This document shows positions 327 to 28,337 of a stretch of DNA of 31,804 nucleotides, one piece after another. The stretch's first letter is position 1; each line of letters starts with the position of its first letter. The translations under genes were made by a program, and so were the position numbers. The stretch is taken from IMG/VR virus record IMGVR_UViG_3300046002_004916, positions 1 to 31,804 of that record. One strand, 5' to 3'. The notes under the pieces are model-generated. The model had not been told where the DNA came from, searched no databases, and was given only the letters and a program-made list of their open reading frames with translations. Source of the DNA: a virus.

Positions 327-667
327 TCGTCATGCCCTGGCCCCCAACGGTCAACACCTACTGGCGCATGGTCGGCGGTCGCATGCTCATCAGCAAAGGC
401 GGGCGCGAGTACCGGCAAGCCGTGGCAGAGCTTGCGGCGCTGCACAAGTGGCCGAAGTTCGGAAGCGCCCGCGTGTCGGTGCAGATCGAGGCATGGATGC
501 CCGACAAGCGCCGCCGCGATCTGGACAACCTACTCAAAAGCATGCTCGACAGCCTGACGCATGCCGGGGTGTGGGATGACGACAGCCAGATAGACGGGCT
601 CGCAATCTGGCGCGCTCCGATGGTGGGTGGCATGTGCAAAGTGGAAATTGCAGAGGTGTCGAAATGA
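323..667 (+). CDS. rusA: RusA-family Holliday junction resolvase
   Basis: This 114-residue protein matches the RusA endodeoxyribonuclease family in length and motifs. It begins with the PWPPTVNTYWR segment typical of the family. The acidic site RRRDLDNLLK (residues 63-72, with Asp66, Asp68 and Lys72) and the later GVWDDDSQID segment (Asp85-Asp87) correspond to the metal-binding aspartates and catalytic lysine of RusA. The family cuts four-way DNA junctions as a dimer; in phages this resolves recombination intermediates and branched DNA before packaging. The ATG at 323 is preferred over an upstream in-frame start at 20 because homology begins here and because it overlaps the zinc-knuckle stop. 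Its stop overlaps the next ATG at 664. Confidence 0.92.
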   Translation: MIVMPWPPTVNTYWRMVGGRMLISKGGREYRQAVAELAALHKWPKFGSARVSVQIEAWMPDKRRRDLDNLLKSMLDSLTHAGVWDDDSQIDGLAIWRAPMVGGMCKVEIAEVSK

Positions 668-1014
668 GCGCATGGCGAATCATCACAAAAGCACTCTACG
701 CAGCAGGCGGCGGGCCTGTTCACACCAGCGCATTCGACAACGCGGAACTGAGCTATGACGGGTTTTGGCACGGCATAGAGCGTGCCGGCAATCTCGGAAT
801 GATCGTCAACACCGTGTCAGGCTGGGGCGTTGCTGAACGTGGCCGGTGGGCGCTGACGGACATGGGCCGCGACTGGTGCGAAGGGCGCATTGCGGTTTGC
901 TGCCCGTTGTGGGATCGCGGACGAACCAAGGCGCAGAGGCCGGTGGCTACGTGGCTCAAGGCGCTGCCGAGAGCGGGCGAGATTCAACTAGGGAACCAAT
1001 GCACACAGCCGTAG
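664..1014 (+). CDS. Hypothetical phage protein, winged-helix-like
   Basis: A 116-residue protein whose ATG overlaps the rusA stop (ATGA at 664-667). The middle has the look of a winged helix: a helical stretch around FWHGIERAGNLGMIV followed by GRWALTDMGRDWCEGR, a pattern common in small phage DNA-binding proteins. The C-terminal half contains two cysteines close together (AVCCPLW) and a basic linker. No named family is recognised. It lies between rusA and a Q-like regulator in a fully coupled set, so a regulatory or DNA-metabolism role is likely but unproven. The last 16 bases overlap the start of the following gene. Confidence 0.7.
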   Translation: MSAWRIITKALYAAGGGPVHTSAFDNAELSYDGFWHGIERAGNLGMIVNTVSGWGVAERGRWALTDMGRDWCEGRIAVCCPLWDRGRTKAQRPVATWLKALPRAGEIQLGNQCTQP

Positions 1015-1364
1015 ATTTCGCGCATGTCGCAGACCGCCACCAGGCCATTGACGCGCGCCTAGCCAATTGGGCGCGGTGGAGTAGCAACCGAAGCGGCAGC
1101 AAGGCTAGCCCGATGTTCGCCATGTACCGATCTACGGAGCAATGGGGCAATGAGTCCGCATCGGCTCCGGTTGATGGACTCGACGCGCAGCGAATCCAGA
1201 AAGCCGTTGGGCATTTGCCGACACCGCACAGGCTGGCGCTGTCGTGGTGTTACATCAAGCGCAACAACCCCCGCAAGGCAGCAACGAGCCTGGGCGAGAC
1301 GATGGAAGGGCTGGCGCGGCTGATTGAGGATGCGCGGCAAATGTTGATTAACCGAAAGGCATGA
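999..1364 (+). CDS. Putative Q-like late antiterminator
   Basis: A 121-residue protein. The first half carries a tryptophan-containing helix (LANWARWSSNRSG) and SPMFAMYRS; the second half (about residues 60-120) looks like a sigma-region-4-type helix-turn-helix, with LALSWCYIKRNNPRKAATSLG followed closely by a recognition-like helix ending in DARQMLINR. This arrangement, and the position directly before the terminase, resembles the small Q-type antitermination regulators of beta- and gamma-proteobacterial phages. A short ORF, a promoter-like sequence, a large palindrome and a strong terminator follow before terS, as expected for a Q-controlled late switch. The family call rests on pattern and context, not on an alignment. 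Overlaps the preceding gene by 16 bases. Confidence 0.6.
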   Translation: MHTAVDFAHVADRHQAIDARLANWARWSSNRSGSKASPMFAMYRSTEQWGNESASAPVDGLDAQRIQKAVGHLPTPHRLALSWCYIKRNNPRKAATSLGETMEGLARLIEDARQMLINRKA

Positions 1365-1365
1365 A

Positions 1366-1584
1366 ATGAAGATTGAAACTTTGGTTCAGATGAAGCCGAC
1401 TGATGTTGCGGTGCTTCACTTTGAGGCAATCGAGTTGATCGCGCTGATGTGGGCGGTTGAGTTTGCGGTTGGAGTGGTGCCCTCTGATGACATCACAGAG
1501 CAAGCGTGGGCAGCGCATAGCCGGCTGCAGGAGGCATTCAAGGCGCTAAACGATCAAATTAGCAGGCGCGCACAAAACGACTAG
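1366..1584 (+). CDS. Small hypothetical phage protein
   Basis: A 72-residue, mostly helical and acidic protein with a hydrophobic stretch (IELIALMWAVEFAVGVV, about residues 22-38) that is amphipathic rather than clearly membrane-spanning. It starts one base after the stop of the Q-like gene, with a purine-rich sequence upstream, so it is part of the same operon. The stop codon (1582-1584) lies inside the left arm of the large palindrome described at 1581-1618. No family is recognised. Confidence 0.65.
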   Translation: MKIETLVQMKPTDVAVLHFEAIELIALMWAVEFAVGVVPSDDITEQAWAAHSRLQEAFKALNDQISRRAQND

Positions 1585-1618
1585 CTCACCACTTGCGCTA
1601 GCGCAGAAAATGAGCTAG
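1581..1618. promoter_or_regulatory. Two-layer perfect palindrome, candidate operator or packaging site
   Basis: The outer arms CTAGCTCA (1581-1588) and TGAGCTAG (1611-1618) are exact reverse complements. The inner TGCGCTAGCGCA (1594-1605) is a perfect 12-base palindrome. Both layers share exactly the same centre (1599.5), with 5 unpaired bases between layers on each side. Such concentric symmetry fits binding of a dimer or tetramer. It overlaps a promoter-like sequence and sits 113 bases upstream of terS, so candidate roles are a late operator, a Q or TerS recognition site, or part of a pac/cos region. Confidence 0.6.
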
Positions 1619-1621
1619 AGT
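1593..1621 (+). promoter_or_regulatory. Possible late promoter
   Basis: TTGCGC (1593-1598) and TAGAGT (1616-1621) are separated by exactly 17 bases and match the sigma-70 hexamers at 3/6 and 4/6 positions. The elements lie within the palindrome, so a bound protein would block or control them. Transcription would begin near 1628 and meet the terminator at 1677, giving a short leader RNA like that made from the lambda late promoter. The match is weak; the arrangement is the main support. Confidence 0.4.
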
Positions 1622-1676
1622 CTTGCAACGACTATCGGGTCGCCCATCCATTTCGGAGGCGCCCGTGTCTGTAAGA

Positions 1677-1707
1677 GCCCGCGTCTTCCGAGACGGCGGG
1701 CTTTTTT
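1677..1707 (+). terminator. Rho-independent terminator before terS
   Basis: GCCCGC plus GTCT pair with AGAC and GCGGGC around a TCCG loop, with one bulged G, followed by six T. It is a strong intrinsic terminator placed between the Q-like gene and the packaging operon. Late transcription would have to read through it, which agrees with a Q-type antiterminator encoded just upstream. Confidence 0.85.
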
Positions 1708-1730
1708 GTTTCCACTTGGCGGGCAGCGCC

Positions 1731-2135
1731 ATGATTGCCGAAAGGCGCCAACGCATGTATCCGCCAGAAGTAAGGCAAGCGGTCCTAGACCGAATCGCAG
1801 ACGGCGAAAGCCTCCGCAGCGTGTGCAGCCGAGACGGCATGCCGGGAAAACGGACAGTTCTGGATTGGTGCGATGCCGATGAGGAATTCCGCACCAAGTA
1901 CGCCCGCGCACGAGAAGCCCAGGCCGATGTGCTGTTCGAGGGCATGGCCGACATTGAGGCGAACGTCCTGACCGGCGATCTGAAGCCAGATGCTGCGCGG
2001 GTTGTGCTGGACTCGCAGCGCTGGCGGGCTGAGAAGCTGAAGCCGAAAGCGTATGGCACCAAGGTTGACTTGAACCATACCGGCGTTGTGAAGTTCGAGC
2101 GGATTGAATGCGTTGTCGTCGATCCTTCGCGTTGA
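1731..2135 (+). CDS. terS: Terminase small subunit (Sf6-type)
   Basis: A 134-residue protein with the layout of Sf6-like small terminases. An N-terminal helix-turn-helix (about residues 12-45: YPPEVRQAVLDRIADGESLR, then RTVLDWCDADEEF) is followed by the YARAREAQAD helix and an oligomerisation region. TerS oligomers bind the packaging site on concatemeric DNA and recruit the large subunit. The frame stays open upstream to 1623, but that part crosses the terminator, so the ATG at 1731 is chosen; an ATG at 1755 is also possible. The 3' end overlaps the large-subunit gene by about 32 bases in another frame, suggesting coupled translation. Confidence 0.85.
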   Translation: MIAERRQRMYPPEVRQAVLDRIADGESLRSVCSRDGMPGKRTVLDWCDADEEFRTKYARAREAQADVLFEGMADIEANVLTGDLKPDAARVVLDSQRWRAEKLKPKAYGTKVDLNHTGVVKFERIECVVVDPSR

Positions 2136-3348
2136 GATTGCTCGGGCGTTCCTTCCGCTTGAGAAGCCAGCGCGGTATCTAGGGGCTCATGGCGGGCGCG
2201 GGTCGTCAAAGTCGCATTACTTCGCTGGTAAGTGGCTAAGACGCAGCATCGCCGAGAAGTTCGATTGCGTGTGCTTGCGCGAGGTGCAGCGCTCGCTAGA
2301 GTTCTCGGTGAAGAAACTGCTAGAGCAGAAGATAGAGACGCACAACGCGGGCGCCTACTTCGATGTTCAAGACCGCCGAATCATTGCGTCGAACGGTGGC
2401 GTAACGATCTTTGAGGGCTTGCAGAATCACACAGCGGATTCGATCAAGTCGCTAGAGGGGTTCGACGCAGCATGGACCGAAGAGGCTCACGGACTGAGCC
2501 AGCGAAGCCTAGACATCCTGCGGCCAACGATCCGCAAGCCCGGTTCTCAGCTTTGGTTTAGCTGGAATCCTGACCTAGACACTGATCCGATTGATGCGCT
2601 GTTGCGGTGTGAGAACCCGCCGCCCGATGCCATCGTTGTCCAGGCGAACTATCTCGATAACCCGTGGCTTCCGCAGGTTCTGCGCGAAGAGATGGAGTAC
2701 GACAAGCGGCGCGACCCTGACAAGTACGCGCATGTGTGGCTTGGTGAGTACCGCAGGAACAGCGAAGCGCGGGTCTTCAAGAACTGGCGCATCGAAGAGT
2801 TTGAGATTCAGCCCGAGTGGATTCTGAGGCAGGGCGCCGATTGGGGCTTCAGCGTAGACCCTTCTGTCTTGGTGCAATGCGCAATCGTTGGGCGCACGCT
2901 GTACGTTCCGCATGAGGCGTACCGGGTCGGCTGCGAAATCGACTTCATGCCTGACCTGTTCCGCACTGTTCCAGACGCTGAGCGCTGGGCCACGGTGGCG
3001 GATTCAGCCAGGCCGGAGACGATCAGCTACATGGTGCGGCACGGCTTCCCGAAGATGCTCGCAGCCATCAAGGGTGCGAAGTCGCTAGAAGAGGGCGTCG
3101 AGTTCCTGAAGTCTTTCGACATCGTGGTGCATCCGCGTTGCGCCCATTTGATTGATGAGCTGACGCTCTACAGCTACGAGGTTGACAAGCTGACCAACCA
3201 AGTCTTGCCGAAGCTGGCAGACAAAGACAACCACGTCATCGACTCGTTGCGCTATGCCTGCGAAGGTGCGCGACGGGCTCAGAAGCGGCCACGTCCTGAA
3301 TTCAAGCAACAGCAGCACCACGGAACCGACGGATTCTTAGGTCTATGA
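2104..3348 (+). CDS. terL: Terminase large subunit (packaging ATPase and nuclease)
   Basis: A 414-residue terminase of the PBSX/Sf6-like group. The Walker A motif GGRGSSKS spans residues 30-37, and the Walker B region with the catalytic acid is at 121-127 (DAAWTEE). The C-terminal RNase H-like nuclease has the expected acidic residues at Asp246 (ADWGF), Asp300 and Asp380 (HVIDSLRYA). The enzyme drives DNA into the procapsid through the portal and cuts the concatemer. No ATG is available near the true N-terminus; the TTG at 2104 has a purine-rich GAGCGGA just upstream, and a TTG at 2113 is the alternative. The stop overlaps the portal start (ATGA at 3345-3348). Confidence 0.93.
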   Translation: MNALSSILRVEIARAFLPLEKPARYLGAHGGRGSSKSHYFAGKWLRRSIAEKFDCVCLREVQRSLEFSVKKLLEQKIETHNAGAYFDVQDRRIIASNGGVTIFEGLQNHTADSIKSLEGFDAAWTEEAHGLSQRSLDILRPTIRKPGSQLWFSWNPDLDTDPIDALLRCENPPPDAIVVQANYLDNPWLPQVLREEMEYDKRRDPDKYAHVWLGEYRRNSEARVFKNWRIEEFEIQPEWILRQGADWGFSVDPSVLVQCAIVGRTLYVPHEAYRVGCEIDFMPDLFRTVPDAERWATVADSARPETISYMVRHGFPKMLAAIKGAKSLEEGVEFLKSFDIVVHPRCAHLIDELTLYSYEVDKLTNQVLPKLADKDNHVIDSLRYACEGARRAQKRPRPEFKQQQHHGTDGFLGL

Positions 3349-5393
3349 CAACCAAACGCGACAAGATCATCGAAGAGGCACGCACGCGGTACGAATACGC
3401 GAGCGAAGCCTGGGCGCCGATCTATGCGCTGATGTCCGACGACCTGGCTTTCAGTGATCCGACATGCCTGAAGCAGTGGCCCGACAAGGTGAAGCGCGAG
3501 CGTGAGATGGACGGGCGCCCATGCCTGACGTTCGATCAGATCGGCCAGTACGTGCGGCAGATCATCAACCAGGCGCGGCGCAACAAGCCCGCGCTCAAGT
3601 TCCTGCCTGTTGACGACAACAGCGATGTGGAGCTGTGCGAGGTGTTGCAGGGCTTGGCGCGGCAGACTGAGTACGAGAGCAAGGCGGAGGTGGCTTACAT
3701 CACTTCGCTCGATCATGCGGTGCGCGGTGGGCTCGGTTTCTTCCGTCTCATCACTGAAGAGATGCAGGGCAGCGAAGTCGTCGGCCAGCAGTGCGCGAAG
3801 ATCATGCGCGTTGTTGATGTGAAGTCGATCAAGCTGGACCCTGATTTCACCGAGATGGACGGCAGCGACTCGGGTTGGGGCTTTGCGGAAGAAACCTACA
3901 CCCGCGAGGCGTTCAAGAAGGCATGGCCGAAGGCTGCGCTTGTCGATTGGGACTCGCAAGGCTGGTTTGGCAAGGATCACATTCGCGTCTGCGAGTACTT
4001 CCGCGTTGTCGAGACGACCACCAACAAGATCAGCGTTGGCGGCAAGAGCTACAGCGAAGAGGAATACTGGCAGGCTGCTGCTGCCGATCCGACGATGGGC
4101 GAGCCTGTGCCCCATGCTGCGAAGTCGCGCAAGGTTGAATGGTTCAAGCTGTCGGGCGAGGAAGTGCTAGAGCAGTCGGAGTTCCCGGCCGAGTTCGTGC
4201 CCATCTTCCCGGTCATCGGCAATGAGTCGTGGGAAGAGGGCAAGCGGCGTTTGGGCGGCATCGTGCGGCCAGTGCGTGACGGCCAGGTGGCGTACAACTT
4301 TGAGCGCAATGGCGAGATTGAAGCGGTCGCCATCGGGCCTAAAGCCCCGTGGGTTGCGCCGGCTGAAGCCATCGAAGGCTACGAAGCTGAGTGGAAGAAC
4401 GCGAACCGGGGCAACATCTCGGTACTGCACTACAACAGCATCGACGAGCAAGGCAACCCGATCAACGCACCGACGCGGATCAATCCCGCTGGTGTTGCTG
4501 CGGGTTGGGTGACGCTGGCGGAGCGCTCCAAGGCAGACATTCAGAGCGGCATGGGCATGTTCTCGGCTTCGGTCGGCAACAACCCCAACAACCAAAGCGG
4601 GCGGGCTGTTCTTGCGTTGCAGGACAAGGCAGAGATTGGCTCGTTCCACTACATCGACAATTTGGCGCTGAGCATTTCGCACATGGGCCGGGTGTTGACG
4701 CAAGTGTGGCCGCGCATCTATGACCAGGCGCAGATTGTTCGCATCCTTGGCGAAGACGACGAATCGACATTCGTGCAGGTTGACCCGCAGCAGCAGCGCG
4801 GCTATCAGAAGCAGCAGGGGCAGGACGGGCGCGAGGTGGTGACGATCAACCCCGGAGCCGGCCGATACGATGCCCGCGCAGTGGTTGGCCCGGCCTACTC
4901 GACGCGGCAGACTGAAGCCGCAGCCGAGATAAGCGAACTGGTGAACGGCAACCCGCAGATGCTGTCGCTCATCGGTGACGTTTGGGTCAAGATGCGCAAC
5001 TTCCCCGAAGCGGAGAAGCTGGCAAAGCGCTTTAAGGCGATGCTGCCGCCGCAGGTTGCAGCGCTTGAGAAGGAAGACGAAGGCCAGGCCGAAATCCCGC
5101 CTGAAGTCGAGCAGGCCATGCAACAGGCCGGGCAGGAAATCCAAGCGCTGCGAGAGCAGAACCAGCAGTTGATGCAGGAAGTGCAAAGCAAGGCCCAGGC
5201 AGACGCGGCAAAGTACGAATCCGCTCAGACGCTGGAAATGATCCGCTCGCAGACTCAATTGCAGCTTGCCGAGATGAACAACGACGCCAAACAGGACGTT
5301 GAAGAACTCAAGGGAATGATTGCGATGCTGATCCAGCAGATGCAACCACCCCCGCAACTCGCAGCCGCTGTGTCTGAGGACATGGCCGAATAG
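3345..5393 (+). CDS. Portal protein (P22-like)
   Basis: A 682-residue protein close in length to the P22 portal (725). The N-terminal segment FDQIGQYVRQIINQARRNKPALKFLP followed by a conserved region (VRGGLGFFRL, about residues 123-135) is typical of P22-type portals. The centre holds the crown/stem-like GMGMFSASVGNNPNNQSGRAV segment. The last 110 residues are a Gln-rich coiled coil, comparable to the P22 portal barrel. Twelve copies form the vertex through which DNA enters and leaves. It is preceded by terL with a 4-base overlap and followed by a terminator and the scaffold gene, the usual P22/Sf6 order. Confidence 0.9.
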   Translation: MTTKRDKIIEEARTRYEYASEAWAPIYALMSDDLAFSDPTCLKQWPDKVKREREMDGRPCLTFDQIGQYVRQIINQARRNKPALKFLPVDDNSDVELCEVLQGLARQTEYESKAEVAYITSLDHAVRGGLGFFRLITEEMQGSEVVGQQCAKIMRVVDVKSIKLDPDFTEMDGSDSGWGFAEETYTREAFKKAWPKAALVDWDSQGWFGKDHIRVCEYFRVVETTTNKISVGGKSYSEEEYWQAAAADPTMGEPVPHAAKSRKVEWFKLSGEEVLEQSEFPAEFVPIFPVIGNESWEEGKRRLGGIVRPVRDGQVAYNFERNGEIEAVAIGPKAPWVAPAEAIEGYEAEWKNANRGNISVLHYNSIDEQGNPINAPTRINPAGVAAGWVTLAERSKADIQSGMGMFSASVGNNPNNQSGRAVLALQDKAEIGSFHYIDNLALSISHMGRVLTQVWPRIYDQAQIVRILGEDDESTFVQVDPQQQRGYQKQQGQDGREVVTINPGAGRYDARAVVGPAYSTRQTEAAAEISELVNGNPQMLSLIGDVWVKMRNFPEAEKLAKRFKAMLPPQVAALEKEDEGQAEIPPEVEQAMQQAGQEIQALREQNQQLMQEVQSKAQADAAKYESAQTLEMIRSQTQLQLAEMNNDAKQDVEELKGMIAMLIQQMQPPPQLAAAVSEDMAE

Positions 5394-5410
5394 ACCGCTT
5401 CACCCCAACA

Positions 5411-5441
5411 GCCCGCCCAGGTAACCCGGCGGGCTTTTTTT
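5411..5441 (+). terminator. Rho-independent terminator after portal
   Basis: GCCCGCC (5411-5417) pairs with GGCGGGC (5428-5434) around a 10-base loop and is followed by seven T. It lies in the short gap between portal and scaffold, so it may lower or modulate the ratio of portal to scaffold/coat transcripts unless transcription is antiterminated. Confidence 0.85.
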
Positions 5442-5480
5442 CGTCTTGGGCCGATTCGCCCATGTCTCATTGAAACGTCA

Positions 5481-6212
5481 ATGACCGAAGAAAACAACGG
5501 CTCACCTGTCGCAGAGCCGGAAATCCCAGCGACTGAAGCAACCGCGCAAGAGAACCCGGAAGTCGCGGCACCGGAAAACGATGAGGCAGCAGAGCGCGAC
5601 GACCCGAACCGGGTAGTCAAGCGCATGGAGCGCCGCATTGATCGACTCACAGCAGCACGCTACCAAGCCGAAGCCCGCGCAGAGCAGGTTGCAGCGCAGT
5701 ACGAGCAGCTACGAGCGCAGTTGTCCCAAGAAGCGCCGCAGCAAGGCGGACAGCAAGACCCGGTCGCGTTGGCCCGCGAGATGTCTCAAGTCGAGCGCAT
5801 CACTGAGAAGGCCAACGGTATTGCGGCAGATGGCAACAAGCGGTTTGAAGGCTTCGGTAAAGCCGTGCAAACCGTATCGGCAGAGGTTGGCTCGCTGTTC
5901 GACAAGCGAGGCAAAGCAACCCCAATCGGTGAAGCCATCTTGGCAGCAGATGACCCGGCTGCGCTGATTCACCACATCGGGAGCAATCCCGACCTTGCGG
6001 CTGATCTGGCGGACATGACCCCCATTCAGCAAGCCCGAAAGCTGGCCCGCATCGAAATCGAAATGGGCAAGCCGAAGGAAACCAAGCAATCAATGGCCCC
6101 GAAGCCAATCAGCCCTGCCCGCGCAATAGCGCGAGACACCGGGGCGCTGTCGAACGACTTGCCAATGGACGAATGGGCAAGGCGTTTTCTTCAGCAGCGG
6201 GCCAAGCGTTAA
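5481..6212 (+). CDS. Capsid scaffolding protein
   Basis: A 243-residue, highly charged protein lacking cysteine and tryptophan in its N-terminal half. Residues 1-40 are acidic and disordered (many Glu, Ala and Pro). Residues about 43-90 form a coiled coil (VVKRMERRIDRLTAARYQAE and onward). The C-terminus is short and basic (WARRFLQQRAKR), like the coat-binding helix of P22-type scaffolds. Scaffolds direct coat assembly into the procapsid and then leave. The assignment rests on this composition and the position between portal and coat. It ends 20 bases before the coat gene. Confidence 0.85.
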   Translation: MTEENNGSPVAEPEIPATEATAQENPEVAAPENDEAAERDDPNRVVKRMERRIDRLTAARYQAEARAEQVAAQYEQLRAQLSQEAPQQGGQQDPVALAREMSQVERITEKANGIAADGNKRFEGFGKAVQTVSAEVGSLFDKRGKATPIGEAILAADDPAALIHHIGSNPDLAADLADMTPIQQARKLARIEIEMGKPKETKQSMAPKPISPARAIARDTGALSNDLPMDEWARRFLQQRAKR

Positions 6213-6232
6213 CCAATCACTGAAAGCGAATC

Positions 6233-7423
6233 ATGGCAAACACCATCCTGACCCCCACCGAGGTGACCCGCGCGGCTCTCGCCATCCTTCACCAGAAGCT
6301 GAACTTCATCGGCAACGTGTATCGCGGGTATGACGACCGCTTTGCACGCGACGGCGCGAAGATCGGCGACACGCTGACCATCCGCCTGCCGAACGAGTAC
6401 ACCGTTCGCTCTGGCGCGACCCTGTCAGCGCAGGAAACCACCGAAACCAGCACCACCCTCTCGGTTAACAACCAGAAGGGCGTTGACCTGAATTTCACTT
6501 CGGCCGAACGGACGATGAGCATTCAGGACTTCAGCACGCGCATTCTTGAGCCGGCGATGTCGGTTCTGGCGTCGAACTTGGAAGCAGACGCATTGAGCAT
6601 GTACAAAGACGTTTACAACTTGGTCGATGGTGACGCGGCTGCGTTCACCTTCGGCTCGGTGGTTGACGCCAAGACCATGCTTACGAACATGCTCGTCCCG
6701 AACGGCGAGCGTTCGATGGTGATGAACACCGCGCACGCCAACAAGCTGATCCGAGACCGCAAGGATGCATTCAACCCCGGATCGGACGTTACCAAGATGT
6801 TCCGCGAAGGCATCGTTGACCGCTCGGCCGGCTTCGACCTGTACGAAAACACGCTGGTCCTGCCGCACACCACGGGCACCGCCGCCAAGGTCACCACATA
6901 CCTTGTCAACGGCGCCACGCAGACCGGCGCTGCTCTGACGGTTGACACCGGAACCACGACGTTCTTGGCGGGCGATGTCATCACCCTCGCCAACGTGTTC
7001 CGAGTCCACCCGGAGACGAAGGCGAACGCTGGCGTCTTGCACCAGTTTGTGGTTACAGCGAACAGCGGCGGCAGCGCGACCAGCTTGGCGATCAGCCCGG
7101 CTATCGTGACCAGCGGCGCGCGTCAGAACGTCAGCGGCTCGCCTGCTGACAACGCAGCGATTACCAAGGTCGGCGCGGGCGCGTCGGAAACCCTGACGCA
7201 ATCGCTGGCGTTCCACCGGAACGCTTTCACGTTCGCCACTGCCGATCTGGTGATGCCCGAGGGCGTGGACTTCGCAGCCCGCGAAGTGATGGACGGCATC
7301 AGCATGCGGATCGTGCGCCAGTACGACATCGTGAACGACAAGTTCCCGTGTCGCATCGACGTGCTGTATGGCTACAAGACTCTGCGCGCCCAACTGGCGA
7401 CCCGCGTTCACAACGACGGTTAA
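6233..7423 (+). CDS. Major capsid (coat) protein, P22 gp5-like
   Basis: A 396-residue coat protein of the P22 gene-5 family (P22 coat has 430). It opens with MANTILTPTEVTRAALAILHQ, then the FIGNVYRGYDDRF and TIRLPNEYTVRSGA segments of the HK97 fold N-arm and E-loop. Residues about 220-310 contain a Thr/Gly-rich insertion (AATQ, TTTFLAGDVITLANVFRV) that would correspond to the inserted I-domain. A capsid shell is built from several hundred copies. The gene is followed directly by a strong terminator, consistent with a highly expressed transcript ending here. Confidence 0.93.
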   Translation: MANTILTPTEVTRAALAILHQKLNFIGNVYRGYDDRFARDGAKIGDTLTIRLPNEYTVRSGATLSAQETTETSTTLSVNNQKGVDLNFTSAERTMSIQDFSTRILEPAMSVLASNLEADALSMYKDVYNLVDGDAAAFTFGSVVDAKTMLTNMLVPNGERSMVMNTAHANKLIRDRKDAFNPGSDVTKMFREGIVDRSAGFDLYENTLVLPHTTGTAAKVTTYLVNGATQTGAALTVDTGTTTFLAGDVITLANVFRVHPETKANAGVLHQFVVTANSGGSATSLAISPAIVTSGARQNVSGSPADNAAITKVGAGASETLTQSLAFHRNAFTFATADLVMPEGVDFAAREVMDGISMRIVRQYDIVNDKFPCRIDVLYGYKTLRAQLATRVHNDG

Positions 7424-7428
7424 GTCTG

Positions 7429-7449
7429 AGCCCCTTCGGGGGCTTTTTT
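7429..7449 (+). terminator. Rho-independent terminator after coat gene
   Basis: AGCCCC (7429-7434), TTCG loop (7435-7438), GGGGCT (7439-7444), then a T run. It is a compact stem with a stable UUCG loop six bases after the coat stop codon. Confidence 0.9.
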
Positions 7450-7480
7450 GTGCGCCATTGACTGACGCAAAAGAAAGCCT

Positions 7481-8164
7481 ATGACCACAGCACTGCAACT
7501 GATCGAAGACGCATTCGCGCAGGCGAACCTAGCCGAGACCGGCCAGGACTTGAGCGCAGAGGATGCCGCTTTGGGCCTTCGCACGCTCAACCGCTTGATG
7601 GGCAAATGGTCGAATCTGCGCCTGTTCTTCCCGGTGCTTGCGGAGTACAGCGTGCCACTGACGGGCGCAGCTTCGTACACCATCGGCCCGACTGGCGGCG
7701 TTGTTGGGCTGCGGCCTCTCAAGGTCAATTCAGCTACTGCGACGGATGCGGGCGGCATGGAGTACCCGGTGAAGATTCTCACGCGGGAACAGTGGGACGC
7801 TATCTCCGTCAAGAGCGTGACGGGTGGCCCGCCGTCTTGCATTTGGTACAGCGCAGACACGACGAACGGGCGCGTCTATGCCTACCCGATCAGCACCGGC
7901 TACACGCTGAAAATCGACTGCCAGGCGCTGCTGACTAGCTTTGAGCTGGCAACTGATGTGACGCTGCCGGATGGCTATGAGGCGGCAATCGTTCCAACGC
8001 TCGCTGACGAGCTTTGCAGCAGCTTCGGTATCAACACTCCAGGCGATGTGCTGCGGCGCGCTGCTGGCGCTGTAAGGGCCATCAAGCGCACGAACACTGA
8101 GCCGCTTCAATCGACGCACGACCTGGCAACGGGCTCGACGTTCATCATCGAAAGGGGCTATTGA
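7481..8164 (+). CDS. Head-closure/tail accessory protein, P22 gp4-like
   Basis: A 227-residue protein. The N-terminal helices (LQLIEDAFAQANLAETGQDL, then ALGLRTLNRLMGKWSN) are the hallmark of P22 gp4-type adaptor proteins, which bind the portal after packaging and keep DNA inside. A central beta region (YTIGPTGG, PVKILTREQWDAI, GRVYAYPI) and a C-terminal helical part (YEAAIVPTLADELCSSFGI) complete the family pattern. P22 gp4 also has muramidase activity in its longer form; no lytic motif is evident here. Position after coat and before the gp10-like hub fits. The stop (8162-8164) shares one base with the next ATG. Confidence 0.82.
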   Translation: MTTALQLIEDAFAQANLAETGQDLSAEDAALGLRTLNRLMGKWSNLRLFFPVLAEYSVPLTGAASYTIGPTGGVVGLRPLKVNSATATDAGGMEYPVKILTREQWDAISVKSVTGGPPSCIWYSADTTNGRVYAYPISTGYTLKIDCQALLTSFELATDVTLPDGYEAAIVPTLADELCSSFGINTPGDVLRRAAGAVRAIKRTNTEPLQSTHDLATGSTFIIERGY

Positions 8165-24546: not shown

Positions 24547-24776
24547 GTTCCCCATTTTTTCCCCATTCGGGGCGATCTTCATAGGGAGGCTTGGTGCCTC
24601 CGACAGGAATCTACGCCGGTTCGTGCTTTGGCGTTCGATTCCGTTTGTAGCACCCAAAACAGCTAGGCGCAATCGGGTTCGTGGGGATTTTTCTTCCCCG
24701 CTTCGGGCATAGGATCGCGGCCATTCCGTTGATCGCGTGGCGTGGGATTCCCCACGATTCCCCGCCAGTTCCCCAC
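24547..24776. other. Putative phage attachment site (attP) with arm repeats
   Basis: This gene-free 230-base stretch precedes the integrase. It contains TTCCCCA/TTCCCCG repeats at 24548 and 24559 on the left and at 24694, 24748, 24758 and 24769 on the right, with spacings of 10-11 bases (one helical turn) inside groups, plus an inverted copy at 24681. Such phased repeats on both sides of a core are typical integrase arm sites. Between them, TTCGATTCC at 24634-24642 reads like a tRNA T-loop, and 12 bases after the TTCGATT loop (as in a tRNA) comes a C and CCA, so the core may match a tRNA 3' end. A perfect hairpin GGAGGC/GCCTCC is at 24585-24601. The tRNA cannot be identified. Confidence 0.5.
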
Positions 24777-25739
24777 ATGGCCCACTTTCACAAGACCGCG
24801 AGAGGCTGGCGCGTGCAAGTCGCACGGCTCGGCGTTCGCCAGTCTCAGACATTCGCCACCAAAGCAGCCGGCGAAGCCTGGGCGCGGCAGGTCGAGTCCG
24901 ATCTACTGGCGCGCAAGCGCGGCACGCTGCCGAAGTACACGGTAGCGCAGGCGCTGGAGAAGTACGCGGCAGAGGTCAGCCCGAAGAAAAAAGGCGGCGC
25001 GTGGGAGGTCAAGCGGCTAGGCGCGTTCGGGCGTGAGCCGTGGGCCGGGAAGCTGCTGCAAGACCTCACAGCCACGGACCTAGCCAGATGGCGCGATCTA
25101 CGCTTGCGGGGCGTTACAGCGGGCTCTGTGCGGCGTGATTTCACGGTGCTGCGCTCAGTGTTCAAGATCGCGGTCAAGGAGTGGAAGTGGATCGACGCTA
25201 GCCCGCTCGATGGTGTCGCCATCCCCGAAGAAAACAAGCCACGTACCCGGCGCATCAGGTGGCAAGAGGTGCGCGGTGTAGTTCGTGCGCTGGGCTACGA
25301 GACTGGCAAGGTGCAGACCAAGCAACAAGAGGTTGCCCTTGCATTTCTCATAGGCTTGAGAACTGCCATGCGTGCGGGCGAGATTCTCAGCCTGAGCCAT
25401 CAAAGCATCGACTTCGGCGGGCGGGTTGCTCATCTGCTGGACACCAAGAATGGGGATGATCGGGACGTTCCGCTATCGCGTGCTGCGGTGCGTCTGTTCA
25501 AGTCGTGGCGCGGCTGGACGGTGGACAGCGCAAGCCTTGATGCGCTGTTCCGCAAAGCTCGGGTACGCGCCGGCCTGGCGGGCTTCACGTTCCACGACTC
25601 AAGAGCCGAAGCCCTGACGCGGATGTCATCCAAGCTAGACCCGTTTGAACTGGCGCGGGTCAGCGGGCACAAAGACATGGGCATTCTTCTCAGCCGCTAC
25701 TACCGGAAGACCGCTAGCGAGATTGCGCGGAAGCTCTGA
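24777..25739 (+). CDS. int: Tyrosine-recombinase phage integrase
   Basis: A 320-residue tyrosine recombinase. The N-terminal arm-binding domain starts AHFHKTARGWRVQVARLGV and has the usual TFATKAAGEAWARQVE helix; a core-binding domain spans about residues 55-150. Catalytic residues are in place: Arg199 (AMRAGE), Lys224 (DTKNG), His273 and Arg276 (HDSR), His298 (GHKD) and the nucleophile Tyr308 or Tyr309 (SRYYRK). It lacks the extra segment of integron integrases and is an ordinary phage enzyme that joins attP and attB. The ATG at 24777 directly follows the last arm repeat and has no clear ribosome site; GTG starts upstream are possible. It converges with the excisionase-like gene by 26 bases. 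Confidence 0.92.
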   Translation: MAHFHKTARGWRVQVARLGVRQSQTFATKAAGEAWARQVESDLLARKRGTLPKYTVAQALEKYAAEVSPKKKGGAWEVKRLGAFGREPWAGKLLQDLTATDLARWRDLRLRGVTAGSVRRDFTVLRSVFKIAVKEWKWIDASPLDGVAIPEENKPRTRRIRWQEVRGVVRALGYETGKVQTKQQEVALAFLIGLRTAMRAGEILSLSHQSIDFGGRVAHLLDTKNGDDRDVPLSRAAVRLFKSWRGWTVDSASLDALFRKARVRAGLAGFTFHDSRAEALTRMSSKLDPFELARVSGHKDMGILLSRYYRKTASEIARKL

Positions 25740-25911
25740 GGTAGTGGTTCGCCTTCCACGCCTCGTAAGCCTCGCGGGACCATTTGACGGTTTTGCGCGA
25801 CAGCACCAGCAGCGGGAAAGGGAAGTCGGGGCGCTTGACCACTTTGCGGGTCACATAGTCACGCTCTAGGCCAAGGTCGGCGGCGATGTCGCCAGTGTCG
25901 ATCAGATCCAT
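25714..25911 (-). CDS. Excisionase/AlpA-like DNA-binding protein
   Basis: A 65-residue protein with one winged helix-turn-helix: LIDTGDIAADLGLERDYVTR (residues 3-22), then PDFPFPLLVLSRKTVKWSRE and a closing helix. This pattern is typical of small phage excisionases and AlpA-type regulators, which bend att DNA and set the direction of integrase action. GAGG lies 6 bases before the ATG at 25911; a TTG 12 bases further upstream is less likely. Its 3' end overlaps the convergent integrase gene, so transcription of one may interfere with the other. It is the last gene of the leftward early operon. Confidence 0.75.
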   Translation of the reverse strand: MDLIDTGDIAADLGLERDYVTRKVVKRPDFPFPLLVLSRKTVKWSREAYEAWKANHYLRASAQSR

Positions 25912-25919
25912 TCGCGTCC

Positions 25920-26207
25920 TCAAAAGTTACGCGCAGCCAGCATGCGCGGTAGGTCGTCGGCAATTTGGTGCAGCAGCTCTTTCAGCGCGGCGCAGTACAG
26001 AACCTCGCCGCTCGCAGCATCAACAGCCCGCCAGGCCACGTAGCCTAGTCGCGGCTCTATCCGCAGATTGCGCCCGCCAGCGCGCAGCAAGTCCAGATCG
26101 AACGGCTGGCGGTTGTCGCTGGATTCGCGGTCAGGAATGCCGGCCTCGCGCTCTGCGTTTGCGCTCCTGATCCGGCTGGCATGGCTTGGTGGCTTGCGAA
26201 ATTGCAT
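25920..26207 (-). CDS. Small hypothetical phage protein
   Basis: A 95-residue protein with a basic, disordered N-terminus (residues 1-35) followed by an alpha/beta part (LRIEPRLGYVAWRAVDAASG, then ALKELLHQIADDLPRMLA). It lies 8 bases upstream of the excisionase-like gene in the same operon. Upstream, the native neighbour was probably the gene now at 27918-28337; the cassette array lies between them today. Function unknown. Confidence 0.7.
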   Translation of the reverse strand: MQFRKPPSHASRIRSANAEREAGIPDRESSDNRQPFDLDLLRAGGRNLRIEPRLGYVAWRAVDAASGEVLYCAALKELLHQIADDLPRMLAARNF

Positions 26208-26230
26208 GGCGGAAAGTCTGGTGAAGTTGT

Positions 26231-26246
26231 CTAAATCACGTTAGGC
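26231..26246 (+). other. Array boundary: attI-like simple core site
   Basis: CTAAATCACGTTAGGC contains an integron core GTTAGGC (26240-26246) preceded by CTAA as an imperfect inverted half-site, but no attC stem to its left. CTAA-N6-TTAG resembles the class 1 attI arrangement (CTAA-N7-TTAG). It marks where the first cassette was inserted after G26240; sequence to the left is original phage DNA. Confidence 0.65.
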
Positions 26247-26644
26247 GCGGGCAATACCGGCTGCTCAACCTCTGTGGCGTCTTCAAACATCGCAGGCTGT
26301 GCGGCCAGCGTCTTGCGCAGAGCCTTGATCGCGGCGCGCACATACTGCGGCACACTGCTGGCCTGGGCGTGCGACTCAACCAGCCGCGCCTTGCCTTCTT
26401 CGCTCACATCGCCCAGGCGCTCGCAGATCGCGCGCACCATGTCCACCATCGCATCGGGTTCCTGCCCTACATCGCAATCCACCCAGACCACAAGGCGTCG
26501 AAGGTGGTTCACCTCTGCGGCGGTCAGGGTGCAGACTGGGTGCTCTCGCATGGGTCGGCCCGCGCCTAACCCCTCGCTCAACCGGAGAGCCAACGGCTCG
26601 GCGGCGGGCATAGGGTCGTGGGTGTCGGTGTCTTGGTCGGTCAT
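26231..26644 (-). CDS. Cassette 1 protein, unknown function
   Basis: A 137-residue frame whose ATG (26644) lies in the loop of attC site A, with GGGAGA 7 bases upstream. The first 32 residues are translated attC sequence (PLALRLSEGLGAGRPM at its end). Met32 (REHPVCTLTAAEVNHLRRL) begins the cassette body and is an alternative start but has no ribosome site. The body is acidic and helical (MVDMVRAICERLGD, VRAAIKALRKTL), like small phage early proteins. The frame leaves the cassette and uses TAG at 26231-26233 in the flanking phage DNA. Function unknown. Confidence 0.65.
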   Translation of the reverse strand: MTDQDTDTHDPMPAAEPLALRLSEGLGAGRPMREHPVCTLTAAEVNHLRRLVVWVDCDVGQEPDAMVDMVRAICERLGDVSEEGKARLVESHAQASSVPQYVRAAIKALRKTLAAQPAMFEDATEVEQPVLPAPNVI

Positions 26645-26677
26645 CGCGTTGTCTCCCGGTTAGCTCGAACGTTAGGC
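26564..26677 (+). repeat. attC-like site A
   Basis: R'' GCCTAAC (26564-26570), spacer CCCTCG, L'' CTCAACCGGAG, L' CTCCCGGTTAG (26653-26663), R' GTTAGGC (26671-26677). L'' pairs with L' leaving one unpaired C, as in the classical aadA attC, which sets the orientation rightward. GAG-c-CAACG (26587-26595) pairs with CGTTG-t-CTC (26647-26655) to extend the stem. Length 114 bases. Confidence 0.88.
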
Positions 26678-26989
26678 CCCAAGCACCCGCACCAGTTCGG
26701 CCAGGGCATCGCGGCTTTTGTCGGTGTCCTTCAGCCACCCGCGCACGGGCTGCCGGCCATCCATGTGCGCTATCACTTGTTGGGCGGCGTGGCGCAGTTC
26801 GGCGCGCTCAATCGCCAGCATGGCCGTTGCCCGCTCCAGCGCCAGGTAGTCGCCAATGGCTACAAACCCGCCAGCGTCGGCCGCGTGAATGTTTGCGCCT
26901 GTCCAGCGTTGGGGCCTAACCATTCGCTCAGCCGGACCCCCAACAGCGGGCCGGTGGTCGGGGTCGTGCGGTGCTTCTATGTGTGTCAT
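26672..26989 (-). CDS. Cassette 2 protein, unknown function
   Basis: A 105-residue protein. Its ATG (26989) is in the loop of attC site B with GAGGAA 4 bases before it, and its TAA (26672-26674) is formed by the core GTTAGGC of site A, so the gene fills the cassette completely. Residues 1-25 are encoded by the attC. The body has two helices (YLALERATAMLAIERAELRH, then a segment ending DALAELVRVLGA) of a type common in phage early proteins. Met23 is a possible internal start. No family is recognised. Confidence 0.68.
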   Translation of the reverse strand: MTHIEAPHDPDHRPAVGGPAERMVRPQRWTGANIHAADAGGFVAIGDYLALERATAMLAIERAELRHAAQQVIAHMDGRQPVRGWLKDTDKSRDALAELVRVLGA

Positions 26990-27034
26990 GTGGTTCCTCG
27001 CGCTGTTGGTGGCCGGTTAGCTTCTACGTTCGGC
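26914..27034 (+). repeat. attC-like site B
   Basis: R'' GCCTAAC (26914-26920), CATTCG, L'' CTCAGCCGG, L' CCGGTTAG (27013-27020), R' GTTCGGC (27028-27034). R'' and R' mismatch at the central base, as expected at the joint of two cassettes. CCAACAGCG (26940-26948) and CGCTGTTGG (27001-27009) form a perfect 9-bp stem below a 52-base loop that holds the start of the cassette 2 gene. Length 121 bases. Confidence 0.88.
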
Positions 27035-27035
27035 G

Positions 27036-27392
27036 TCAGGCGGTGACCGTTGCAGTTGAAGCCCGCGCCTTGTCGGTCTTGTCGCGGTGTACGGCTACCA
27101 CCAGCATCACGAATCCCCAAGCTAGCGCGCTGGCAATGTGTCCAAACCACAACAGCAGGCCGAGCGTTGCCCACGCCTGGAATAAGTTCAGCGCACCACG
27201 AACGGGCCGGGCTGGCTTCTTTGCGGCATCGGCGGTGGCCTTGTCTGCCAGCAAGAACAGAGACAGCGGCAGCAGCACCCATACCCAAAATTTCAGCACG
27301 TACATCGCGCCATCGACATCCGCTGCAAATGCACCGTACAGCACGGCCCAATGCAGAGAGTGCCCCACCAACCACTGAAAATAGTTCTTCAT
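27036..27392 (-). CDS. Cassette 3 membrane protein
   Basis: A 118-residue protein; GGAGA lies 7 bases before the ATG at 27392, well inside the cassette, so this gene does not use the attC loop for its start. It has three likely transmembrane segments: about residues 10-24, 30-49 (LKFWVWVLLPLSLFLLA within it) and 77-102 (ATLGLLLWFGHIASALAWGF within it). A basic linker (KKPARPVRG) and a basic C-terminus suggest cytoplasmic ends. The stop is 8 bases inside the cassette border. Many integron cassettes encode small membrane proteins of unknown role. A second, overlapping frame from GTG 27450 is considered spurious. Confidence 0.68.
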   Translation of the reverse strand: MKNYFQWLVGHSLHWAVLYGAFAADVDGAMYVLKFWVWVLLPLSLFLLADKATADAAKKPARPVRGALNLFQAWATLGLLLWFGHIASALAWGFVMLVVAVHRDKTDKARASTATVTA

Positions 27393-27419
27393 CAAAAATC
27401 TCCTTTTGCTTCGGCAGCA

Positions 27420-27507
27420 GCCGAACTGTGTGCTCAACCGGACCCGTCACGGCAGCGGTTCGCCCCGTTGGGGCCGGCGCGCGGGTCCGGTTAGCACGGC
27501 GTTGGGC
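27420..27507 (+). repeat. attC-like site C
   Basis: R'' GCCGAAC (27420-27426) and R' GTTGGGC (27501-27507) mismatch at the centre. L'' and L' are the best of the array: GTGCT-C-AACCGGACCC (27429-27444) pairs over 15 bases with GGGTCCGGTTAGCAC (27483-27497), leaving a single unpaired C. At 88 bases it is the shortest site. The cassette 4 gene ends inside it. Confidence 0.9.
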
Positions 27508-27785
27508 GGCGCCAATACATCGCGGGCCGTGCTCAGTGCTTCTGTCCGCTCTGTTTCGCAGCCATCGCAGCAGGGCGGCGCCTTCGGCCCCATAACCCGC
27601 ACCACATGCTCAAGCGCCTCGCGGTAGGCGTTGGCCTTGGCGCCGTTCTCCATCGCCTGCGCAAAGTGCTGGTCCTTAGCTGCGGCCAAGTGCTCTATCT
27701 CGTCGGCTGCTTCTGCTGCCGGCCGGTAGATGCCGCTGCTGTTGGCGCGCAGCCAGGCGCACAGTTCGCTTCTTCCCATCATCAT
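27447..27785 (-). CDS. Cassette 4 protein, unknown function
   Basis: AGGAG lies 4 bases before the first of three consecutive ATG codons (27785, 27782, 27779), giving about 112 residues. A longer form from ATG 27878, in the loop of attC site D with AAGGA upstream, adds 31 residues of translated attC (LGLGLSEGLGGARP). The body is helical (CAWLRANSSGIYRPAAEAAD, then YREALEHVVRVMG) with a Cys cluster (PPCCDGC) and resembles small phage early proteins. The frame runs past the core into attC site C, so the last residues are attC-encoded. Its stop overlaps a GTG. Function unknown. Confidence 0.65.
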   Translation of the reverse strand: MMMGRSELCAWLRANSSGIYRPAAEAADEIEHLAAAKDQHFAQAMENGAKANAYREALEHVVRVMGPKAPPCCDGCETERTEALSTARDVLAPPNAVLTGPARRPQRGEPLP

Positions 27786-27818
27786 CTTTCTCCTGTTATT
27801 CAGCATGGGCCGGGCGCC

Positions 27819-27923
27819 GCCCAACCCCTCGCTCAAGCCGAGCCCCAACGGCCGGTCACTTTCTGTGGTCATGTTCATCCTTTCGCGCCGGCCGTCGTGG
27901 CCGGCTTAGCTCGAACGTTACGC
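27819..27923 (+). repeat. attC-like site D, right end of array
   Basis: R'' GCCCAAC (27819-27825), CCCTCG, L'' CTCAAGCCG, L' CGGCTTAG (27902-27909), final core GTTACGC (27917-27923). ACGGCCGG (27848-27855) and CCGGCCGT (27888-27895) form a perfect 8-bp stem. The last core departs from GTTRRRY in one position, and its TTACGC belongs to the original phage gene that ends here. Length 105 bases. Confidence 0.85.
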
Positions 27924-28337
27924 AGCCTCAAACGGACGCCGAATCAGCGCATGAAACCGCTTTGCCGCAGCCTCGTCGCTGTCCAGTTCCGCCCGCGACT
28001 CAATACCGCACACCGCGCGAACAACGCTAGCAGCCCATGCTGTCGGCGTGTCGCCTGGCGCATCGCCCCACTCGCGCGTGAAATGCTCCTGCGCCCAGCG
28101 GTGAAACGCGGGGTTGGCGCACATCATCGCTACGTCGCGTGCCAGCTTGCCGCCTTTCGGCTTCTCTGCTGGCTCTGCCGTCGCGCACTTGATCGCGGCC
28201 AATGCCATCGGCGTGCCTGGCGCACCGAACAATGCAAACGCGGCTTGTGAGTGGCGCGGCTCGATGTCCACGGTCAGGCGCAGAGTTCCATCGGCCATAG
28301 TGCGTGCGCTGCTACTGCTGGATTCGATGATGGTCAC
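27918..28337 (-). CDS. Conserved phage hypothetical protein
   Basis: A 139-residue protein starting at GTG 28337, overlapping the upstream stop (GTGA). The first part is a beta-type segment (GTLRLTVDIEPRHSQAAFAL). The second part, MMCANPAFHRWAQEH followed by ASVVRAVCGIESRAELDSDE and FHALIRRPF, is a module I recognise from many beta-proteobacterial phages without known function. Its TAA stop (27918-27920) coincides with the core base triplet where the cassette array begins, so array insertion left this gene intact. It probably was followed directly by the gene at 26207 before insertion. Confidence 0.8.
   Translation of the reverse strand: MTIIESSSSSARTMADGTLRLTVDIEPRHSQAAFALFGAPGTPMALAAIKCATAEPAEKPKGGKLARDVAMMCANPAFHRWAQEHFTREWGDAPGDTPTAWAASVVRAVCGIESRAELDSDEAAAKRFHALIRRPFEAA

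Follow-up and report, generated by a model that had tools for sequence, protein, structure and literature searches.

An array of attC cassettes without an integron integrase in a phage early operon, probably of an inverted-polarity integron kind specific to phages

Integrons are usually viewed as bacterial platforms that are occasionally picked up by phages. Phage integrons and CALINs, mostly without an intI gene, have already been described, and some of the phage cassettes encode DNA methyltransferases (Qi et al. 2023, PMC9892861). In the same study IntI1 was active on five of the six phage attC sites assayed, and two attC sites of phage TJE1 recombine with IntI1 (PMC9892861). The kind of array described here resembles these systems in that attC cassettes are carried by phages, mostly without intI and in some cases with methyltransferase genes. 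The systems of Qi et al. have bacterial polarity where this could be compared (sense in TJE1) or are captured bacterial integrons, whereas the cassettes of the present kind are antisense, its relatives possess a phage IntI clade with an attI, and start signals lie in attC loops. Class 1 integrons (IntI1) share with our array the attC architecture with a bulged C in L'', and a covariance model trained in part on class 1 sites matches it, but class 1 cassettes are sense and come with a Pc promoter and resistance genes, and our array has no intI. The chromosomal integrons of Burkholderiales have the same attC family, G/TT cores (the slash marks the crossover) and extended pairing of cassette ends; they differ in that their cassettes are mostly sense (173 sense to 25 antisense among the matches listed), their IntIs fall outside the phage clade, and they have hardly any cassette proteins in common with the phages. 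The "reverse integron" of Treponema denticola likewise has intI and cassette genes with a common reading direction (PMC7691350). In that element it is the integrase gene that is turned, with the cassettes downstream of intI, whereas in the phage integrons the intI/attC arrangement is canonical, the cassette genes are turned and the cassettes lie upstream of intI. In the open literature, preprints and closed journals aside, we found no report of inverted cassette polarity or of a phage IntI lineage.

The window, by which we mean the whole stretch of DNA analysed, is the entire IMG/VR virus record IMGVR_UViG_3300046002_004916 of 31,804 bp, which may itself be incomplete. It encodes a terminase, a portal protein, a major head protein, a phage integrase and a single-strand annealing protein (phrog_3290), and a BLASTN search of the window against annotated phages gave no match. 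Four attC-like sites lie in it, flanked by an excisionase-like gene and by early genes. The order cassettes, xis, int is the same in a relative whose integrase is 84% identical to that of the window (L069) and in a prophage (L396). The sites and their surroundings are as follows.

24681–25739, plus strand: phage integrase (tyrosine recombinase), not IntI; phrog_1 and Pfam Phage_integrase, TIGR02249 unmatched in the record
25714–25923, minus strand: excisionase-like gene, phrog_66
25920–26207, minus strand: gene with no assigned function, which by position only occupies the place of intI in IntI-bearing relatives
26240–26246, plus strand: left boundary core GTTAGGC, with no recognisable attI to its left
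26564–26677, plus strand: attC A, R'' GCCTAAC and R' GTTAGGC; covariance model 47.8 bits, E = 2e-10
26914–27034, plus strand: attC B, GCCTAAC and GTTCGGC; covariance model 35.7 bits, E = 2.8e-7
27420–27507, plus strand: attC C, with a short loop, GCCGAAC and GTTGGGC; covariance model 23.4 bits, E = 4e-4
27819–27923, plus strand: attC D, GCCCAAC and GTTACGC; arms and bulged C by rule, no match to the model
27918–28337, minus strand: flanking phage gene, its stop codon directly adjacent to the right crossover; phrog_10379 and others

The training set of the covariance model consisted of 19 known attC sites, taken from class 1 integrons on plasmids and from chromosomal integrons beside intI; over the 31.8 kb of the window the model found nothing beyond A, B and C on the plus strand. 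A preliminary description of this DNA, made from the sequence alone, had reported four sites in the order R''/L''/L'/R' with one extra C in L''; the order, the coordinates and the extra C (each L'' has one C more than L', like annotated class 1 attC sites) were reproduced as given. The check with an attC model that it proposed came out positive for A, B and C and negative for D, a miss explained by the R' of D (GTTACGC), which belongs to the neighbouring sequence; in the excised circle this R' would read GTTGGGC, the complement of the site's GCCCAAC. The three model matches fall within 950 bp and a fourth site is recognised by rule, which is the clustering of attC sites that characterizes a CALIN. 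The same model assigns 23.0 and 21.2 bits to two sites of TJE1. With its filters switched off, cmsearch missed long-loop sites that the default mode recovered, probably because the length of such sites exceeds the scan range of the 48-position model in that mode. In DNA folding, the second kind of check proposed, the whole-site energies of A and B are no better than those of shuffled sequences.

Division of the array at the G/TT crossovers yields four cassettes, each with one attC site at its end and one gene on the opposite strand.

26241–26671, plus strand: cassette 1, a 431-bp circle with attC A at its end; 13-base end complementarity
26231–26644, minus strand: gene c1, 137 aa, antisense to attC; phrog_28192, E = 5e-22 from residue 39
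26672–27028, plus strand: cassette 2, 357 bp, attC B at its end; 12-base end complementarity
26672–26989, minus strand: gene c2, 105 aa, antisense; codon plus Shine-Dalgarno score 20.5 versus -2.6 for sense
27029–27501, plus strand: cassette 3, 473 bp, attC C at its end; 7-base complementarity, variant core GTTCGGC/GCCGAAC
27036–27392, minus strand: gene c3, 118 aa, antisense; score 24.1 versus -0.7 for sense
27502–27917, plus strand: cassette 4, 416 bp, attC D at its end; 13-base complementarity, variant core GTTGGGC/GCCCAAC
27447–27872, minus strand: gene c4, antisense; score 18.2 versus -2.8 for sense

The two ends of each cassette are complementary over 13, 12, 7 and 13 contiguous bases in cassettes 1 to 4, and recomputation returned values identical to those first described. 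The contiguous complementarity between the two cores of one site is 7 bases in A and 3 bases each in B, C and D, in agreement with the earlier observation that the facing halves of the last three sites mismatch while variant cores pair within their cassette. Among random GTT/AAC-anchored pairs in the window the probability of at least 7 complementary bases is 0.007, and 12 or more occurred in 0 of about 20,000 draws. Pairing of the ends within a cassette and not within a site is what insertion of circles at G/TT predicts, and the cores of the array covary within the circle as they do in a CALIN. Pairing of cassette ends often extends 3–6 bases past the 7-base core, host integrons included (means 3.96 and 2.82 bases), and this pairing beyond the core lengthens the outer attC stem in the circle. 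At the left boundary (26229–26246) the sequence GTCTAAATCACGTTAGGC is a small palindrome whose halves both resemble a core; it may be an attC that has collapsed, or a secondary site that arose by chance.

The plus strand is the top strand of the attC sites, and all four genes lie on the minus strand, an orientation opposite to that of canonical sense cassettes and one on which the preliminary description was silent. The stop codon of c2 falls inside the core, that of c1 9 bp past the crossover, that of c4 inside attC C and that of c3 short of the cassette end. On the minus strand, the loop of attC A holds the start signal of c1, the loop of B holds GAGGAA and the ATG of c2, and the loop of D holds AAAGGA and the ATG of c4; with Shine-Dalgarno sequence and ATG inside these loops, the first residues of c1, c2 and c4 are therefore attC-encoded. 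The start of c3 falls outside attC C. Among viral cassette genes, 100 of 260 start inside an attC, including 90 of 142 where the attC measures 96–130 nt and 3 of 87 where it measures 80 nt or less. Unrelated cassette proteins, in the window (26564–27923) and at many other loci, have short attC-encoded N-termini in common, such as ...LSEGLG... and ...VERGVR..., which are two reading frames of one hairpin arm. The c3 protein shares 67% identity with a protein from a cassette of an IntI-bearing phage (L338); for c4 the identity is 78% across 65 aa, to a protein from a cassette in L128.

The inverted orientation is not confined to the window. An 18-base motif (GCCTAACGTTYGAGCTAA) occurs in at least 116 viral contig stretches and in at least 120 stretches of bacterial genome contigs, the latter mostly from Rubrivivax and other Burkholderiales among the matches listed. 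Cassette orientation was scored from codon use and Shine-Dalgarno signals, with training on long viral ORFs and the same score for both sets. Among the matches listed, the viral cassettes from IMG/VR were antisense in 178 cases, sense in 3 and unclear in 4, compared to 25 antisense, 173 sense and 47 unclear in bacterial chromosomal integrons; the difference is highly significant (p = 1.8e-75, Fisher), and some of the viral contigs counted may be fragments. Host arrays are still labelled sense by this score, and the sense convention was confirmed in annotated class 1 integrons. An earlier codon-ratio classifier was dropped: it labelled viral cassettes inconsistently, took no account of start signals and disagreed with unambiguous cases such as the genes of L005. 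Two arrays reached through relatives of the annealing protein, with no use of the motif (L020 and L021), are antisense too. A phrog_2 terminase is encoded in 22 of the 49 array-bearing viral records. L005 has 14 covariance-model matches in its first 5.2 kb and a C5 methyltransferase gene beside the array, and the contig looks circular, since part of one methyltransferase gene is present at both ends. Products of cassettes and array-adjacent genes include C5 and N6/N4 DNA methyltransferases, Mom, Lar, NinX, MT-A70 and HNH proteins, and most cassette products have no recognisable function.

Comparisons among relatives locate the exchange of cassettes at the crossover. Of the 169 viral cassettes in the matches listed, 139 have cores that pair inside the cassette, compared to 94 for pairing inside one site; counted over variant cores alone, the fractions are 36/53 and 11/53. 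When blocks of homology (at least 90% identity) are delimited, 50 of their 171 internal ends lie within 15 bp of a G/TT, compared to a mean of 7.7 and a maximum of 19 in 1000 trials with random placement. Two different phages, L095 and L141, share a 428-bp cassette at 100% identity, with both ends at G/TT; it has no attC on its left in L095 and lies inside an array in L141. One 381-bp cassette is present in only one of L131 and L173, although annealing between the 60-bp attC sites on either side of it is another possible origin of this difference. Other cassettes lie between the attC sites of L005 and L069; L069 has two such sites and, next to its excisionase gene, a cassette unlike those of the window. 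The presence or absence of cassettes among relatives, proposed as a check in the preliminary description, was thus found in other array-bearing phages and not at the window's own locus, for which the neighbouring gene and the integrase, used as queries, recovered one close relative or none and consequently no empty site. Its main claim of a cassette array in a phage early operon is upheld by the attC model, the core covariation, the cassettes of L069 and L005, the L095/L141 identity and the present/absent pair. Neither of the findings it had named as contrary, a lack of attC-model matches on the sites and a fixed gene order in relatives, was made.

No integron integrase is encoded in the window, as first noted: the TIGR02249 (IntI) profile has no match anywhere in the record. 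Above the cut-off it matches 2 of the 49 viral records with arrays, full-length and including the IntI-specific region (425–428 bits, cut-off 265), and a phage IntI profile built from those two recovered 27 viral contigs. One phage IntI aligns continuously over its full length to the IntI4 structure 2a3v (E = 1.6e-73), and the identity between phage IntI and IntI1 is about 57%. In the IntI-bearing viral contigs all 44 attC matches lie opposite to intI and the genes run in its direction in 65 of 66 cases, which means that the platform polarity is canonical, yet the cassette genes are turned. Seventeen phage IntIs, one Burkholderiales prophage copy included, form a single clade (99/92) apart from 38 Burkholderiales chromosomal IntIs, the bacterial IntIs of the tree having been picked by score from one order only; three more distant viral IntIs group with IntI4 and two other chromosomal IntIs, and one viral IntI remained unplaced. 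IntI is encoded in 113 of 300 Burkholderiales genomes.

Just 5' of the phage intI lies a conserved attI, most commonly of the form GCGGTCGAATTNANG/TT. Three contigs (L331, L333 and L335) are identical over 100 bp up to the G of attI and 26–32% alike beyond it, and L324 and L325 show the same divergence at the G/TT of attI. Relatives possess intI and attI beside the array, the combination that makes a complete integron, and the window possesses neither. The record of the IntI-bearing contig L317 includes a complete siphophage head module. A prophage end in a Burkholderiales genome (L396, G174:C13, positions 488–6219) carries antisense cassettes with its own intI, xis and int. The order there is cassettes, intI, xis, the phage int facing them and then chromosomal-looking genes, and the window has this order minus intI; in L312 intI stands between the cassettes and int.

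We consider it highly probable that the segment 26241–27917 is a CALIN in a phage early operon and represents a phage-specific kind of integron with inverted polarity. Antisense early-operon cassettes and the order cassettes, (intI), xis, int mark this kind and are both found in the window, which, being without intI and a recognisable attI, is classed as an IntI-less array (CALIN) of it. Each cassette would be a circle with one attC, and IntI would fold the bottom strand of attC and insert the circle at the G/TT of an attC, an attI or a secondary site. The gene is carried on the attC bottom strand with the attC 5' of it, unlike in bacterial cassettes, and the loop of a long attC (A, B and D) supplies the Shine-Dalgarno sequence and start codon and encodes the beginning of the protein. 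Transcription of the cassettes would probably proceed from the phage early operon and not from an integron Pc promoter. The intI of relatives occupies the downstream end of the same operon, next to the conserved attI. As the window has no intI, its sites, if active, would depend on IntI supplied in trans by the host or a co-resident phage, or else the array is a remnant. The preliminary description favoured a host integrase; given that related phage integrons encode their own IntI, a phage, either ancestral or co-resident, is also a possible source of the enzyme. Against our interpretation stand the absence of intI and attI, the lack of an empty site at the window's own locus, the non-consensus R' of D and the plain folding of A and B.

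Some of these points would fit a dead remnant, in which an ancestral intI and attI were lost and the four cassettes persist as fixed genes. The place of intI, between the cassettes and xis (L396) or int (L312), is taken by another gene in the window, no attI is recognisable, and the R' of attC D has left the consensus. We nevertheless regard this scenario as unlikely, because A, B and C score at or above the sites of TJE1, a phage with IntI1-active attC, and because most array-bearing viral records are without intI, yet recently moved cassettes are common to them.

It is quite improbable that the hairpins are conserved 5' leaders or linkers, shuffled without IntI through homologous recombination by the phage annealing protein. 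Under such a scenario exchange could end anywhere in the hairpin, and it ends at G/TT; the moved cassette in L095 has no attC on its left, and divergence begins from G/TT even at attI, where something other than an attC is the left partner. Cores that covary within cassettes, and an IntI clade that accompanies many arrays, are likewise at odds with it, even though the window encodes an annealing protein and no intI, start signals are often inside the hairpin, and the cassette that distinguishes L131 from L173 sits between two similar 60-bp attC sites. Least credible is a single capture by a phage of a bacterial integron segment with cassettes from a host array (compare the Vibrio and P1 cases of Qi et al. 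2023): the attC family is indeed common to the chromosomal integrons of Rubrivivax and other Burkholderiales, but bacterial cassettes of this family are sense, cassettes 3 and 4 match phage cassettes, and only 5 of 301 phage cassette proteins match host loci among those listed, all five in one phage-like contig. That small contig (L262, Aquincola MAG contig JALHQP010000167.1) has antisense cassettes and proteins also encoded in phage cassettes, and its presence in a bacterial genome may be a binning artefact of phage DNA.

Beyond the inverted-polarity CALIN of the window, we are inclined, with some reservation, to the broader proposal that phages keep an integron system of their own, with an IntI lineage and attI at the early operon's end, inverted cassettes in which attC serves as a 5' leader that holds the start codon and encodes the N-terminus, and an anti-restriction pool circulating between phages, and with polarity separating the phage pool from the bacterial one. 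The attC site fixes the direction in which a cassette is inserted, so that a bacterial sense cassette in a phage array would face against the operon; polarity may in this way keep the phage and bacterial pools apart. The circulating genes would presumably serve the phages against host restriction. If it is confirmed that phages have an IntI lineage whose polarity, attI and pool of cassettes are its own, integrons would be an adaptation system of viruses too, and phage integrons would help to explain the reshuffling of small early genes, including those for methyltransferases, Mom and Lar. The orientation of the gene against attC could then serve to separate phage from bacterial cassettes in metagenomes, and hundreds of small phage genes without a known role would be offered for counter-defence screening.

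Another type of phage integron is possibly represented by Virus Rctr41k (KX853513; L402, positions 4680–8049), a phage in GenBank that came from a DAMO enrichment and whose integrase, annotated as xerD, is IntI-like. A rule-based finder located two long candidate attC hairpins in it, sense with respect to the genes, for which the covariance model gave no confirmation. The antisense arrays, for their part, can be extensive: a 35.9-kb circular-looking phage (L314/L315, IMGVR_UViG_3300017747_002940) carries at least 15 antisense attC cassettes, about one fifth of its genome, together with two methyltransferase genes.
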